From the NCBI GenBank assembly GCA_012729655.1, contig JAAYCS010000036.1, forward strand, positions 1-64,000: DNA of 64,000 nucleotides, read 5' to 3'. This document shows, one piece after another, positions 41,605 to 52,936 of the stretch. The position numbers were made by a program, and so were the translations under genes. Within the stretch, counting starts at the first letter, position 1. Every line of letters begins with the position of its first letter. Origin of the DNA: Desulfovibrionales bacterium. GTDB lineage: Bacteria; Desulfobacterota; Desulfovibrionia; Desulfovibrionales; Desulfomicrobiaceae. The notes below the pieces were generated by a model. It was not told the DNA's origin and searched no databases. It worked only from the letters and a program-made list of their open reading frames with translations.

Positions 41605-43551
41605 TTACGACACCTTGCTGCCGTTTTTAACTATTGCACTCGGCACGAGCAGCTGCATCCCGCCTTCCTGCTTGAGGGCCAGGACCATGCCCTGGGAAAC
41701 CTGCCCCCGCAGCTTGCGGGGCTTCAGATTGGCCACCACAACCACCTGCCGTCCAAGCAGGGCCTCCGGCGACCAGTGCTCTGCAATGCCGGCCACCACT
41801 TGCCGGAGGTCTTCCTCACCCGTGTCGACCTTCAGGATCAGCAGGCGGTCCGCCTCAGGATGCTGCTCCACAGCCAGCACCGTGCCCACGCGCAGGTCGA
41901 CCTTGGCAAAATCCTCAAACTCGATGCACTCCGGACAGGCCATCTCGATCTTGGGACCGGACTCTGCCTCCTTGGGCGTCTTGACCTTCCTGGACACAGC
42001 GGGCCTTTCCCCCCTGGACTCCAGATCCTGGCGGGGGAAGAGGTTGGAACGCTCGGCCACGGCTGTACCCGGAGCCAAACCGAACCAGGATGAGGTTTCG
42101 GCCTCCAGGTCCGCTCCTTCCAGGGAGAACTTCACGCCGAGCTGGGCGAGCATGGTCTCGCTGGTTGATGGCATGACGGGCCACAGGTGCACGGCCACCT
42201 TGCGCATCCCTTCCAGAATGACATAGATGACTGTTCCCAGCCGGATTAGATCCTGGTTCTTGAACAGCGTCCAGGGAGCCGCCGTGTCGATGTATTTGTT
42301 CAGATACCGGACCAGGTCCCACAGGGATTTCATGGCCCGGGAAAATTGAAAATGCTCGAATTGAATCTGGAAATTGGCTATGGCGTTGTGTCCAATCTCA
42401 AGTACCTCCCGATCCAGCTCCATCAACTGGCCGCACTCGGGCACTTTGCCACCGAAATACTTGTGGGTCATGGACAGACTGCGCGAAAACAGGTTGCCCA
42501 GGTCGTTGGCCAAATCGGCATTGAAGCGACCCGCCAGGGCCTCCTCGCTGAAGGAGGAATCCTGGCCGAAACTCATCTCCGACAGCAGGAAATAGCGGAA
42601 TGCACTGAGGCCGTATTTTTCGGCCATGTCCAGAGGGGCGATGACGTTGCCCAGGCTCTTGGACATCTTGGTCTCGTTGACCGTCCAGTACCCATGCACC
42701 CGCAGACCCTTGTAGAGCGGGATGCCCGCGGACATGAGCATGGTCGGCCAGAATACGGCGTGGGGCTTGAGGATGTCCTTGGCCACCAAGTGGTGCGCTC
42801 CAGTCCAGTATCTGCGGTACTTCTCCCCCTCGGGATAGCCCAGGGCCGAAATGTAGTTGATAAGGGCATCGAACCAGACATACGTCACGAAATCCGTGTC
42901 AAAGGGAAGCTCAATACCCCAGGTCAGCCGCGTCTTGGGCCGGGAGATGCACAAATCTCCCAGGTCCTCTTTGAGCATGGACAGAACTTCGTTGCGATAG
43001 CGTTCGGGCTGGATGAACTCCGGGTTGGCCTCGATGTGCTGACGCAGCGGCTCCAGATACTTGCTCATGCGGAAGAAATAGTTCTTCTCCTTGATAAAGG
43101 TCGGCACGGTCTGATGGTCCGGGCATTTGCCATCCACCAGCTCCTTGTCCGTGTAGAACCGCTCGCACCCGAAACAGTAGTGCCCGCCATACTCGTCGAA
43201 ATAGATGTCGCCCTTGTCGAACACGGCTTGCAGCACGTGCTGCACACAAGCCTTGTGTTCAGGATCCGTGGTCCGGATGAAATGATCGTTGGAAATCTCC
43301 AGCCGGGGCCAGAGCTCCTGAAACAACCGGCTGATTGCGTCGGAATAGGTCTTGGGATCCTGGCCGCTCGCCTCTGCGGCCTGTACGATCTTGTCGCCGT
43401 GCTCGTCCGTGCCGGTCAAAAAAAACGTCGCATCGCCTTTCAGGCGATGAAAACGGCTGATACTGTCCGCGACGATTGTCGTGTAGCCATGCCCCAGATG
43501 GGGCCGGGCATTCACGTAATAGATGGGTGTGGATATAAAAAACGGTTTCAA
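41605..43551 (-). CDS. metG: Methionyl-tRNA synthetase with C-terminal tRNA-binding domain
   Basis: 648 residues. The class I signatures HLGHG and KMSKSLGN, a zinc knuckle (CFGCERFYTDKELVDGKCPDH) and an anticodon-binding helical domain are followed by a C-terminal EMAP/Trbp111-like domain (FAKVDLRVGTVLAVEQHPEADRLL). I choose TTG 43551 as start: AAGGAG lies seven bases upstream and the protein then begins (M)KPFFISTPIYYVN, as family members do. The GTG at 43587 would overlap the upstream gene's stop. The charged segment at about 490-530 links the domains. Confidence 0.95.
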   Translation of the reverse strand: MKPFFISTPIYYVNARPHLGHGYTTIVADSISRFHRLKGDATFFLTGTDEHGDKIVQAAEASGQDPKTYSDAISRLFQELWPRLEISNDHFIRTTDPEHKACVQHVLQAVFDKGDIYFDEYGGHYCFGCERFYTDKELVDGKCPDHQTVPTFIKEKNYFFRMSKYLEPLRQHIEANPEFIQPERYRNEVLSMLKEDLGDLCISRPKTRLTWGIELPFDTDFVTYVWFDALINYISALGYPEGEKYRRYWTGAHHLVAKDILKPHAVFWPTMLMSAGIPLYKGLRVHGYWTVNETKMSKSLGNVIAPLDMAEKYGLSAFRYFLLSEMSFGQDSSFSEEALAGRFNADLANDLGNLFSRSLSMTHKYFGGKVPECGQLMELDREVLEIGHNAIANFQIQFEHFQFSRAMKSLWDLVRYLNKYIDTAAPWTLFKNQDLIRLGTVIYVILEGMRKVAVHLWPVMPSTSETMLAQLGVKFSLEGADLEAETSSWFGLAPGTAVAERSNLFPRQDLESRGERPAVSRKVKTPKEAESGPKIEMACPECIEFEDFAKVDLRVGTVLAVEQHPEADRLLILKVDTGEEDLRQVVAGIAEHWSPEALLGRQVVVVANLKPRKLRGQVSQGMVLALKQEGGMQLLVPSAIVKNGSKVS

Positions 43552-47411: not shown

Positions 47412-50048
47412 TTATGCCAAAATCTCCTCCAACTTGGCCAGGGCCCGTTCGATACCCTCAGGTTCTGACCCTCCGGCCTGGGCCAGATCGGGTCGTCCGC
47501 CCCCGCCGCCCCTGATTTCGGAAGAAACTTCCCTGATCAGTGCCGGGGCCGTGAATCGGCCATGCAGATCCTTACTCACGGACAAGACCAGCATGGCCTT
47601 GCCATCGATCTCAGCCGCCAGAGCGATGACGCCGCTGCCGATCTTGGAACGCAGGTCGTCCATGAGATTTCTGAGGGCGTTCACGTCGGGGGCCTCGACC
47701 TTCCTGGCCAGCACCTTCATGCCGGCGATGTCCTTGGCCTCGGAGGCCAGGTCCTTGCCGCTTTCGGACATGACCCTGGCCTGCAGGGCCTGCAGTTCCT
47801 TGGACAGGGCCTTGGCCTGGTCCTGCAGGACCGCGATCTTCTTCGAAACCTCGGTCGGGGCGGCCTTGAGCAGGACGGCCGCGGCGCGGACCTCCTCGCG
47901 CTGGGCCTGCCAGTGGCGCAGGGCGTCCCAGCCCGTCAGGGCTTCGATGCGGCGCACGCCCGCGGCGATGCCGGCCTCGGACAGGATGGCGAAGGAACCG
48001 GCCTGGCCCGTGGACTCCAGGTGCGTCCCGCCGCACAGCTCCACGGATTCGCCGGCCATCTCGACCACGCGCACGTCGGCCTCGTACTTCTCGCCGAACA
48101 GGGCCATGGCCTGTTTCTCGTTCACGGCCGCGTCGTAGGACATGACCTGCGTGGTGATGGGCGCGTCGGCCAGGATGACGCGGTTGACCTCATCCTCGAC
48201 CCGCTGCAACTCCTCGGCCGTGAGGCCCGAGATGTGGGTGAAGTCGAAGCGCAGGCGCGAGGGTCCCACCAAGGAGCCGGCCTGCTTGACGTGATCGCCC
48301 AGCACCCGGCGCAGGGCCGCGTGCAGCAGGTGGGTGCAGGAGTGGTTGCGGGCTGTGGCCACGCGCTCGCCTTCCTCCACGAAAAGCTCCACTTCCTGGT
48401 CGGCCAGGATCTCGCCGCCGGTGACCTCGACCTTGTGCACGAGGAGCGTCGGCGCGGGCTTGAGTGTATCGATCACGCGGGCCGCACCCGTGGGGGCCTG
48501 CACCCGCCCCGTGTCACCCATCTGCCCGCCGGATTCGCCGTAGAACGGGGTCTTCAGCGTGACCATAAAGCCGGTGCCGCCGTTCAGGCGATCCACGGGC
48601 TGGCCTTCGGCGTCCAGCAGGGCGACAATGCGGCTCACGGCGGACAGGCAGTCGTAGCCGATGAAGGCGGACTCAAGGCCCGAACCCATGAGGGCCGCGA
48701 ACTGCCCGGCCAGCCCCTTGTCCCCGGAGCCGGCCCAGGCTTCCTTGGACTTCTTCTTCTGCACAGCCATATGCTCGCGAAAACCGGGCTCATCCACGGC
48801 AAAACCCTGCTTTTCGGCAATGTCGTTGACGATATCGAGGGGAAATCCATACGTGTCGTACAGCCTGAAGGCCGTCTCGCCGCCGATGGTTTTGCTCCCC
48901 GAAGCGGTCAGGGTCGCCATCTCGTCCTCGAGAATGCGCAGACCTTTGTCCAGGGTCTCTCCGAAACGCTCTTCTTCCTGACGTACCACACGGACCATGA
49001 AGTTCTTGTTTGCAATGAGCTCCGGAAAAGTTCCACCCATCTCGTCAGCCACCTGGGCCGTGGACTCACACAGAAAAGGTTCATTGAAGCCCAGCATCTT
49101 GCCGAAGCGGTAGGCCCGGCGGATCAGCCGGCGCAGGACGTAGCCCCGGCCCTCGTTGGAGGGCAGCATGCCATCGGCCAGCAAAAAGGCGATGGCCCGG
49201 CTGTGGTCGGCGATGACCCTGAGGGCCGTGTCCGATTCCTCGTCCTGGCGGTAGGCCACGCCGGCCTTTTTGGCCATGGTCTGGATCAGACCCTGGAAGA
49301 GGTCCGTGTCGAAGTTGGAACGTTTCCCCTGACAGACTGCAGTGATGCGCTCCAGGCCCATGCCCGTGTCAATGCTCGGCTTGGGAAGGGGGGTCATGGT
49401 CCCGTCGGCCGAGCGGTTGAACTGCATGAAGACCAGGTTCCAGATTTCTAGGAACCGGTCGCAGTCGCACTTGCCGATGCCGCAGTCGGGCCCGCAGGCC
49501 ATGTCTGCGCCCTGGTCCACGTAGATCTCGGAGCAGGGGCCGCAGGGGCCCGTGTCGCCCATGGCCCAGAAGTTGTCCTTCTCGCCGAGGCGGAAGATGC
49601 GCTCTGTCGGTACGCCGGCCACCTTCCGCCACAGCTCGCTGGCTTCGTCGTCGTCTCGGAAGATGGAGATATAGAGTCGGTCCTTGTCCAGACCCAGCTC
49701 CTTGGTCGCGAAATTCCAGGCCAGGCGAATGGCCTCCTCCTTGAAATAATCCCCGAAGGAGAAATTCCCGAGCATTTCGAAAAAAGTGTGATGGCGGGCC
49801 GTGCGGCCCACATTCTCTAAATCGTTGTGCTTGCCGCCCACCCTCAGGCATTTCTGGGAGGTTGTGGCCCGGAAATACTCCCTCTTTTCCTGCCCCTGAA
49901 AAATCTTCTTGAACTGGACCATGCCTGCGTTGGTGAAGAGCAAGGTCGGGTCATCCTGGGGCACCAGAGAGGAGCTGGGCAGCACGGTATGCCAATGTTC
50001 CTTAAAATATTCCAGAAATCGTTTGCGAATCTCGTCAGCGCTGATCAC
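47412..50048 (-). CDS. alaS: Alanyl-tRNA synthetase
   Basis: 878 residues, close to E. coli AlaS (876). Class II catalytic domain ([20 protein letters not shown]-type motif in [25 protein letters not shown]), the editing domain with [13 protein letters not shown] and [10 protein letters not shown] zinc motif, and a C-Ala domain at the end. The GTG at 50048 has GAGG six bases upstream and the product then begins (M)[14 protein letters not shown]; the frame's extension to 50312 runs through recA on the same strand and is not used. It lies 37 bases after recA. Confidence 0.97.
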
Positions 50049-50085
50049 GTTGTACCTCGTTATTTTTGGCCCATGGAGGGCGGGA

Positions 50086-51144
50086 TTAGTCTTCCGAAAC
50101 CTCGGGCGCAGCCGAAGCCTGCTCAGGCACCGGCATGCCCAGGTGTTCGAGCAGAGCCCGCTCGATCTGCAGACGCAGATCGTCGTTATCCTGCAAAAAT
50201 GCGCGCACATTTTCCTTGCCCTGACCCAGGCGCTCAGATCCAAAAGCGAACCACGCCCCGCTCTTGTCAACAATGCCATTGTCCACGCCCAGATCCAGCA
50301 GTTCGCCCACACGAGAGATCCCGGTGCCGAACAGAATATCGTATTCGGCCTCGCGGAAGGGCGGAGCCATCTTATTCTTGACGACCTTCACACGCACCCG
50401 GTTGCCGTACGACTCTTCCTTGTCCTTCAGAGTCTGGATGCGGCGCACGTCCAGGCGCACCGAAGCGTAGAACTTGAGGGCATTGCCGCCGGTCGTGGTT
50501 TCCGGGCTGCCGTAGCCGGTCATGCCGATCTTCATGCGCAGCTGGTTGATAAAGATGATGGCGGTGCGGGATTTGTGGATGGTGCCGGTCAGCTTGCGCA
50601 TGGCGTGGGACATGAGCCGGGCCTGTGTTCCGACCTGGGTCTCGCCCATGCTTCCTTCCAGCTCGGCCTGCGGGATGAGGGCGGCAACAGAGTCCACAAC
50701 GACCACGTCCACGGCCCCGGAACGGACGAGCATGTCCGCGATTTCAAGGGCCTGTTCGCCATAGTCAGGCTGGGAGATGAGGAGATCCTCGGTTTTGACC
50801 CCGAGTCGACGGGCATAGTTGATGTCCAACGCATGTTCAGCGTCGATGAATGCCGCTACGCCTCCGAGCTTCTGGGCCTCGGCGATGATGTGCAGGGCCT
50901 GGGTGGTCTTGCCCGAGGACTCAGGACCGAAAATTTCCGTCACCCGGCCGCGCGGAATGCCGCCGACGCCCAGGGCCAGGTCCAGCCCGATGGAACCTGT
51001 GGGAATAACCGGCACGACCTGGTGAGTGGTGTCGGAGAGACGCATGACCGAGCCCTGGCCGTAACGCCGCTCGATGGTGGCCAGCGCGGTTTCCAACGCC
51101 TCGCGGCGGGCGTCCTCAGGGGAAGAAGTTTTGGGTCGGGCCAT
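50086..51144 (-). CDS. recA: Recombinase A
   Basis: 352 residues. Walker [20 protein letters not shown] (Walker B), the L2 loop region ([21 protein letters not shown]) and the C-terminal acidic tail (EVSED) are present. It directs homologous recombination and LexA cleavage. The ATG at 51144 has GGAG upstream. The 294-base region before it, shared with the divergent PP-loop gene, has two AAATATGGG copies near 51174 and 51201 but no SOS box that I can recognise with confidence. Confidence 0.98.
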
Positions 51145-51438
51145 GGCGTGCTCCGTGAAAGTTGGGGGTTCGAAAATATGGGAAGGCAATGGCTCGTAGC
51201 AAATATGGGGTTGGAAGACAATTCTCCAGATACCCCTGGACTGAGAACATTCCTCAACCAATCCAGACCAGAAACCAAACCCCGGATGATTTTCTTCCGC
51301 CGAAACTGACGTGCCATCCAGGGCGGCCTTGCCTGAATCCGCGGTCTTGAGACAGGCATTCCGGATCACCCTTCTGCAAGCGGTACACCCGACAATGCCT
51401 CTTGCCTCGCATCCCGCCATTGTCTAGGCAGCTTGGGC

Positions 51439-52611
51439 ATGAATGAACAGTATGATGCCCTGTCCCTTTTTTCCGGCGGCCTGGATGGCATTCTTGCCAG
51501 CAAACTGATCCAGGGTCTTGGGCACAAGGTCCTGGGATTGCATTTTATCAGCCCTTTTTTCGGGCGTCCCGAACGTGTCCCCGGATGGGTGCGCACTTAC
51601 GGACTGCCCATTGACATCATCGACATCGGCCAGGAATTCGTGGACCTCATGGCCGCCTTTCCCCCCCACGGCTTCGGCAAAGTCATGAATCCCTGCGTGG
51701 ACTGCAAGATTCTCATGCTGCGCCTGGCCAAAAAACTTTTGCCACAGTACGGCGCCAAATTCCTGATCACCGGAGAAGTTCTAGGCCAGCGTCCCATGTC
51801 CCAACGCGCCGACACTCTGAACGTCATCCGCAACGAGGCCCAGGTTCACGACATTCTCCTGCGGCCTTTGAGTGCGGGGCTGCTCCCGCCTACACCGATG
51901 GAAGAATCTGGCGTGGTGGACCGCGCTAAACTCCCCGCCCTGTGTGGCCGGGGTCGAAAGAGTCAATATCAGCTTGCCAAGATCCTGGGGGTGACCACGA
52001 TTCCGCCCCAGGCCGGAGCCTGCCGCCTGGGAGAACGGGAATCGGCCCGGCGCTACTGGCCTGTCATGCAAACCTTCCCCAATCCGCAATCAGGAGATTT
52101 TGTCCTGGCCAATGTCGGCCGCCAGCTCTGGCGCAGGCTGGCAGGACATGCCACCGGTCACTGGCTGGTCATGGGTCGGGAGCAAAAGGACAACGAAAGG
52201 CTGCAGGAGCTGACCAGGTCCGATGACTACGTCTTCATGCTGAAGAGCTTCCCCGGCCCCCATGCCGTCGGACGGCAGGTGCCGGGTCAGGTGTGGAGGG
52301 AAGATGTCCTGCACGAAGCCGCGACCTGTCTGGCCTGTTTCTCAGCCAAGGCCAGGAGACACGGCGGCATGGTTGAGGTCGTGGTGCGGCAAGGGGAAGC
52401 TGAGTGGACCGTTACGGTCAATCCTGCCTCCCCGCACAATTTCACGGACAACCTGACCTGGGCGGAAACGCGCGAAGCGCAGAAGGACTGGGAAAAAAGC
52501 GTCCTGCTGAACCGGGACGAAGCGCTGACCCCGGCCCAGGTCCGGAAAGACCAGACCAACACTCAAGGAGGGCTTCATGGCTGCGCAGACAAAACCGATG
52601 GTATCTTTTGA
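51439..52611 (+). CDS. ThiI/MnmA-like PP-loop protein with C-terminal NFACT-R-like domain
   Basis: 390 residues. The N-terminus has the ATP-pyrophosphatase loop FSGGLDGILASKL (residues 11-23) and a NPCVDCKILM cysteine pair, then LITGEVLGQRPMSQ, all as in tRNA thiouridine synthases of the ThiI/MnmA type. The C-terminal part (from about 215) resembles the NFACT-R RNA-binding domain, with FMLKSFPGPHAVGRQ and an EAATCLACFSAKAR helix. It probably modifies tRNA; the target base is unknown. The start is ATG 51439 (TTG 51433 possible). It overlaps the next gene by 35 bases. Confidence 0.72.
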   Translation: MNEQYDALSLFSGGLDGILASKLIQGLGHKVLGLHFISPFFGRPERVPGWVRTYGLPIDIIDIGQEFVDLMAAFPPHGFGKVMNPCVDCKILMLRLAKKLLPQYGAKFLITGEVLGQRPMSQRADTLNVIRNEAQVHDILLRPLSAGLLPPTPMEESGVVDRAKLPALCGRGRKSQYQLAKILGVTTIPPQAGACRLGERESARRYWPVMQTFPNPQSGDFVLANVGRQLWRRLAGHATGHWLVMGREQKDNERLQELTRSDDYVFMLKSFPGPHAVGRQVPGQVWREDVLHEAATCLACFSAKARRHGGMVEVVVRQGEAEWTVTVNPASPHNFTDNLTWAETREAQKDWEKSVLLNRDEALTPAQVRKDQTNTQGGLHGCADKTDGIF

Positions 52612-52936
52612 CAACTCTTTTTCCTTGCTGGACATTCGATTGGGGCGCGTCGTTTCTGCGGAGCCCTGCGCGAAGACACCCAAGCCGACGTACAGGATGG
52701 ACATTGATTTCGGAAAATTCGGCCTGCGCACCGGCTATGGGCGGTTCACTTCCCATCCCCTGGACGAGGTCGTGGGACGGCTGGTGCTGGGTGTGCTCAA
52801 TTTCCCTCCCAGGCCCATGGGGGAGGTTGTTTCGGAAGTGCTGGTGCTGGGCGTGCAGTTTCCGGGCAAGGAGAGTGGGGAGGCGACCTTCGTCAGCCCG
52901 GCGGTTGACGCCAAGCTCGGCTGCAAGCTCTTCTAG
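52577..52936 (+). CDS. CsaA-like small tRNA-binding protein
   Basis: 119 residues forming a stand-alone EMAP-II/Trbp111 OB-fold: SFSLLDIRLGRVVSAEPCAKTPKP, then YRMDIDFGKFGLRTGYGRF and LVLGVLNFPPRPMG, as in CsaA. Members bind tRNA as dimers and have chaperone-like activity in vivo. An AGGAGG site lies inside the end of the PP-loop gene, with which it overlaps, which suggests a shared role in tRNA handling. Confidence 0.88.
   Translation: MAAQTKPMVSFDNSFSLLDIRLGRVVSAEPCAKTPKPTYRMDIDFGKFGLRTGYGRFTSHPLDEVVGRLVLGVLNFPPRPMGEVVSEVLVLGVQFPGKESGEATFVSPAVDAKLGCKLF

Follow-up and report, generated by a model that had tools for sequence, protein, structure and literature searches.

The 64,000-nucleotide stretch analysed here (the window) is positions 1 to 64,000 of contig JAAYCS010000036.1 from a Desulfovibrionales bacterium (assembly GCA_012729655.1). 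On its plus strand lies a gene whose product joins a PP-loop ATP pyrophosphatase domain, similar to that of the 4-thiouridine synthetase ThiI, to an NFACT-R RNA-binding domain. We propose that this PP-loop/NFACT-R protein probably makes 4-thiouridine (s4U) at uridine 8 (U8) of tRNA. The features of the locus are as follows.

51439..52611, plus strand: PP-loop/NFACT-R protein, 390 amino acids from an ATG start (alternative TTG start at 51433, two codons upstream)
51442..52032, plus strand: PP-loop ATP pyrophosphatase domain, ThiI-like, residues 2-198 (PF02568; VIA match to 4kr6)
51472..51489, plus strand: SGGLDG motif of the PP-loop, residues 12-17 (nearly all relatives have SGGLDS)
51694..51705, plus strand: CVDC, a CXXC motif with C86 and C89 (invariant in 27 aligned rows and in 111/111 sequences)
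52021..52023, plus strand: C195, third cysteine of the CXXC-C set (110/111 aligned sequences)
52120..52452, plus strand: NFACT-R RNA-binding domain, residues 228-338 (PF18297; VIA match to 8s1u; RqcH profile match)
52495..52611, plus strand: non-conserved C-terminal tail, residues 353-390 plus the stop codon, which overlaps the following open reading frame (ORF)
52577..52936, plus strand: CsaA-like/tRNA-binding OB-fold ORF, 119 amino acids, judged to lie outside the system

The N-terminal half of the protein matches the Pfam ThiI model PF02568 (residues 86-144, 36.5 bits against a cut-off of 20.5). The C-terminal half, which contains the segment FPGPHAVGRQ near residues 271-280, matches NFACT-R_2 (PF18297; residues 243-334, 31.2 bits against a cut-off of 26.9), and the Pfam model PF05670 scores 19.4 bits, below its cut-off of 29.8. 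When a profile of 27 sequences was compared with solved structures, its N-terminal half found Bacillus anthracis ThiI (E = 1.2e-5) and its C-terminal half found RqcH (E = 0.0012). The alignment to the ThiI equivalog model TIGR00342 begins at model position 172 and protein residue 4, which places the PP-loop domain at the N-terminus. Neither THUMP nor NFACT-N (PF05833) gave a Pfam match at E ≤ 1 in this protein.

An AlphaFold2 model built from the 27-row alignment has a mean predicted local distance difference test score (pLDDT) of 91.4 and a predicted template modelling score (pTM) of 0.87, and confidence is low only in the last ~30 residues (mean pLDDT of 56 at residues 361-370 and below 50 at 373-390). 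Structural neighbours come from a second look with VIA at the top 1000 Foldseek chains, such that a family off this list is not thereby excluded. For residues 2-198, a complex of a 4-thiouridine synthetase with RNA heads the list (4kr6; Z 15.8, 3.1 Å over 164 residues), and subsequent rows hold chains of LarE and further chains of ThiI (2c5s, Z 14.6). The stretch 228-338 aligns with RqcH (8s1u; Z 13.4, 2.1 Å over 101 residues, 29% identity), and a near-identical stretch also matches FbpS, CCDC25 and NEMF. An earlier sequence-only reading of this DNA had proposed structure prediction for the C-terminal region, and the NFACT-R fold at 228-338 agrees with its view of that region, as do Pfam and the profile match to RqcH. 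Its observation of the SGGLDG loop and the CxxC pair holds at residues 12-17 and 86-89, and its assignment of a thiouridine-synthase-like PP-loop is borne out by PF02568 and the predicted fold. The fusion of PP-loop and NFACT-R domains is therefore real, and it is not due to chance, because the protein is encoded at E ≤ 1e-86 in 37 of the 41 genomes that form our nearest sample (the window genome and 40 relatives). The other four are G014 and G028, which give weak N-terminal matches only, and G039 and G040, which give no match.

We compared 110 loci, 80 from a genome collection and 30 from a phylum sample, with some genomes in both and with the window itself included (L120). The collection organisms are mostly Desulfovibrio, Desulfomicrobium, Desulfobulbaceae and their relatives, plus one record labelled Aquificota. 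In an alignment of 111 sequences the most conserved columns fall in the PP-loop domain, where the 27-row and 111-row alignments share an invariant core that includes SGGLD, NPC-D-CK, GQRPMSQR and C195; within NFACT-R, 107-109 of the 111 sequences retain R228, R247, N252 and P274. The 80 collection loci were retrieved by patterns containing NPC[VI]DCK and GQRPMSQR, so these motifs are favoured by selection; C195 lies outside every search pattern, and the 30 phylum-sample loci come from a profile search. C86, C89 and C195 are all kept in 110 of the 111 sequences; L110, a fragment at the end of a contig, is the one exception.

In related thiolases, a CXXC motif with a third cysteine ligates a catalytic [4Fe-4S] cluster, and C86, C89 and C195 follow this pattern. 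In ThiI of the methanogen M. maripaludis, three cysteines, including a CXXC, are essential and coordinate a cluster, with sulfide as a usable substrate (PMC5372739). Likewise, [4Fe-4S] clusters are held by three cysteines with one iron free in LarE with its CXXC-C arrangement (PMC9283937) and in NcsA (PMC10067955).

The distribution of the family was surveyed in a phylum sample of 297 genomes, with membership defined as a match at E < 1e-30. By this measure 263 genomes carry it; those counted as lacking it comprise 16 with weaker matches (E 2.2e-4 to 1.2e-13) and 18 without a match. An independent search with PF18297 only gave matches in 260 of the 297 genomes (over cut-off in 252, up to 103 bits), and among the best matches listed most lie in frames of ~320-400 residues, the size of the PP-loop/NFACT-R protein. 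The sequence-only reading had called this an uncommon unit, a description that is not supported for a family near-universal in this sample and whose domain has a Pfam model. In some genomes the family has two or more distinct matches (G061, at C1:445311 and C1:1639101, and G321 are examples), which suggests paralogues with another role.

Canonical ThiI shows the opposite pattern. None of the 41 nearest genomes has a ThiI over the TIGR00342 cut-off, and in the phylum sample it exceeds the cut-off in 17 genomes, 14 of which are without the PP-loop/NFACT-R family. The full cross-table is 260 genomes with PP-loop/NFACT-R only, 14 with ThiI only, three with both and 20 with neither, a complementarity with a Fisher p of 2.2e-12 when shared descent is ignored; the 14 ThiI-only genomes carry eight family labels. 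The window genome is 88.6% complete, and thus the absence of ThiI from it rests on its relatives too.

A further line of evidence comes from the known eraser of s4U. RudS is a tRNA s4U desulfidase built of TudS and DUF1722 (PMC11417400). The same study notes that RudS occurs in the absence of ThiI in two groups of organisms, one of them mostly thermophilic sulfate reducers, and its authors suggest that these either have a ThiI with another domain architecture or make no s4U (PMC11417400). The window genome, in which no ThiI was found, encodes a RudS-type protein of 316 amino acids with TudS (PF04463) and DUF1722 (PF08349) parts (L180, positions 670-1620; contig C70 of G000). Across the 297 genomes DUF1722 occurs in 147, of which 136 have the PP-loop/NFACT-R family only, six ThiI only, one both and four neither; this PF08349 count includes stand-alone DUF1722, and the TudS part was checked in the window genome copy only. 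Those four are among the 20 genomes with neither enzyme over cut-off, several of which are incomplete assemblies.

A separate MnmA protein is also encoded, and 2-thiouridine at position 34 (s2U34) therefore needs no further enzyme. The sequence-only reading had left the product as s4U or 2-thiouridine (s2U); the first is now favoured, as no ThiI exceeds the cut-off, and the second loses ground, being explained at position 34 by MnmA.

Taken together, the ThiI-like fold, the distribution complementary to ThiI, the RudS-type eraser, the conserved CXXC-C cysteines and the separate MnmA lead us to favour, with fair confidence, a role for the protein as a [4Fe-4S]-dependent tRNA U8 4-thiouridine synthase that would replace THUMP-type ThiI in this bacterium and in most of its phylum. 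We hold with slightly less assurance the broader proposal that NFACT-R/PP-loop enzymes may be the missing 4-thiouridine synthases of this mostly sulfate-reducing phylum, dependent on a [4Fe-4S] cluster, fed by free sulfide and using NFACT-R in place of THUMP. In such an enzyme the NFACT-R domain would bind tRNA, as its occurrence in RqcH suggests, and the PP-loop would spend ATP on adenylating O4 of U8, as in ThiI. Cys86, Cys89 and Cys195 would hold the cluster, and a sulfide on its fourth iron would attack the activated uridine, both steps being modelled on archaeal U8 sulfurases, NcsA, TtuA and LarE. The sulfur would probably come from free sulfide, which sulfate reducers have in plenty. Burroughs and Aravind (RNA Biol, 2014) are reported to have predicted a role in tRNA 4-thiouridylation for NFACT-R in other architectures, with a thiouridine-synthase domain and with TusA-like carriers.

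Several observations weigh against this proposal. The PP-loop fold is common to MnmA, LarE, QueC and argininosuccinate synthase, and therefore the fold alone leaves the substrate unfixed; YcfA (Z 15.2) ranks level with the top ThiI row for the PP-loop domain, and the TIGR00342 score of 34.2 bits is far under the cut-off of 264.5. Three of the 297 genomes hold both enzymes and 20 hold neither. The window copy itself differs at four columns that are conserved at ≥90% in the 109 others, for which the median is one and the maximum four. Two of these changes are S17G in the PP-loop (51487-51489; S in 107/109 others) and G194A beside C195 (52018-52020; G in 108/109 others), and this copy, changed beside putative catalytic positions, could be altered in activity. 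In addition, among the papers listed by a literature search on 4-thiouridine and Desulfovibrio, none appears to report s4U from an organism of this kind.

The best surviving alternative keeps the same two-domain thiolase and dispenses with the cluster, such that Cys89 or Cys195 would carry a persulfide passed on by either a desulfurase acting on cysteine or a carrier resembling TusA, the way MnmA and E. coli-type ThiI work. We regard this as unlikely. The TusA-like partners reportedly named in the 2014 NFACT-R prediction would fit such a relay, but a crude motif search for TusA in the 110 loci, with flanks of up to 5 kb, found none near these genes, no TusA profile search having been made. E. 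coli ThiI, of the same superfamily, does work through a persulfide on a cysteine pair (PMC5372739); however, retention of all three cysteines in 110/111 sequences is more in keeping with a cluster held by three ligands than with a relay between two cysteines.

Less probable still is thiolation of a nucleoside other than U8, for example 2-thiocytidine at position 32 (s2C32), s2U54 or another uridine. The sequence gives no readout of the target base, and the CXXC-C PP-loop enzymes TtcA, TtuA and NcsA have other targets (PMC5372739, PMC10067955). Against this, the closest fold and the closest hidden Markov model are both those of ThiI, and the distribution complementary to ThiI and the s4U eraser in the same genome also argue for U8. 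An RqcH-like function in rescuing ribosomes or in RNA quality control, with the PP-loop secondary, appears very improbable: NFACT-R is otherwise best known from RqcH and NEMF, but NFACT-N was not found in the protein, 21 of the 41 nearest genomes encode a separate NFACT_N protein that scores over cut-off, and the strongest conservation sits in the PP-loop domain. Finally, we give almost no credence to a single tRNA-modifying unit formed with the overlapping CsaA-like gene, as the sequence-only reading had supposed, since despite the 35-base overlap in the window genome the two genes adjoin in no other genome's locus among 39 and among 110 loci (its own loci included), and close CsaA-like homologues lie elsewhere in 11 of the 15 other genomes of the same genus.

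The 35-base overlap of the two ORFs (52577-52611), reported in the sequence-only reading, was confirmed. It arises because of the C-terminal tail (residues ~353-390) that most relatives are without, their alignments ending near 355-360, and is most readily explained as a chance arrangement of the local genes. The CsaA-like ORF scores 25.5 bits with the Pfam tRNA_bind model (PF01588), just below the cut-off of 27, and 58-77 bits with its best CsaA and tRNA-binding models, all below their cut-offs (75.6 against 119.65 for TIGR02222); we regard this 119-residue ORF as a putative tRNA-binding OB-fold relative and do not assign it as CsaA. Its homologues in the genus (67-81% identity) lie ~35-105 kb from the PP-loop gene on five shared contigs, and the remainder are on other contigs or in genomes where the PP-loop gene was not found. 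The CsaA-like gene was thus rejected as a partner on gene order.

Neighbour clustering left out 25 of the 110 loci, and gene order was recounted by tblastn on all 110; at least 1500 bases of upstream sequence were available in 87. The genes that recur beside the PP-loop gene are ones we take to be recN (directly upstream in 40 loci), recA (upstream and divergent in 33) and alaS (upstream in 27). In the window, presumed recA-like and alaS-like genes lie upstream and divergent on the minus strand (50086-51420 and 47412-50312). Elsewhere in the window, positions 41620-41922 (minus strand) hold the end of a 667-residue frame that weakly resembles the CsaA-like ORF (E = 2.4e-4) and is probably the tRNA-binding end of a methionyl-tRNA synthetase.

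The domains themselves are already catalogued in Pfam, and our literature search, with most subscription journals outside its reach, returned no paper on the PP-loop/NFACT-R fusion. New here are the finding that the family and ThiI complement each other across the phylum, the cluster pattern of three cysteines and the s4U eraser that occurs alongside. The family is a concrete, phylum-wide candidate for the s4U-making enzyme of organisms that have RudS and no ThiI, and the evidence makes its predicted job directly testable. If the proposal is true, it would explain the RudS erasers of sulfate reducers without ThiI, the gap left by the authors of the RudS study. Recognition of U8 would then have been solved twice, with THUMP in one case and in the other with NFACT-R, whose known setting is otherwise ribosome rescue. 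Bacteria would also have a route to s4U that depends on a cluster and draws on sulfide, as in methanogens.

Among known systems, ThiI (TIGR00342) shares with the PP-loop/NFACT-R protein the PP-loop fold, the GQ...SQ motif region and, putatively, U8 adenylation. Unlike ThiI, the new protein has no detected NFLD-THUMP or rhodanese domain and places its RNA-binding part, NFACT-R, at the C-terminus; the ThiI motif is SGGxDS, whereas the window copy reads SGGLDG. The archaeal [4Fe-4S] U8-tRNA sulfurases of the M. maripaludis ThiI type are similar in their CXXC plus third cysteine and their anaerobic, sulfide-rich host (PMC5372739, PMC10067955), but ThiI proteins bear NFLD/THUMP (PMC5372739) where the PP-loop/NFACT-R protein bears NFACT-R. 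RqcH, NEMF and FbpA have the NFACT-R domain in common with it, whereas the PP-loop/NFACT-R protein is without a detected NFACT-N and is fused to a PP-loop ATPase; the Pfam NFACT-R_2 (PF18297) proteins apparently have the same architecture. MnmA, TtcA, TtuA, NcsA and LarE are likewise sulfur transferases of the PP-loop kind, and in several of them three cysteines hold a [4Fe-4S] cluster (PMC5372739, PMC9283937, PMC10067955), yet they differ in substrate and in their RNA-binding parts. The CXXC with a distant third cysteine that marks the three-cysteine [4Fe-4S] PP-loop thiolases is seen here as C86, C89 and C195.
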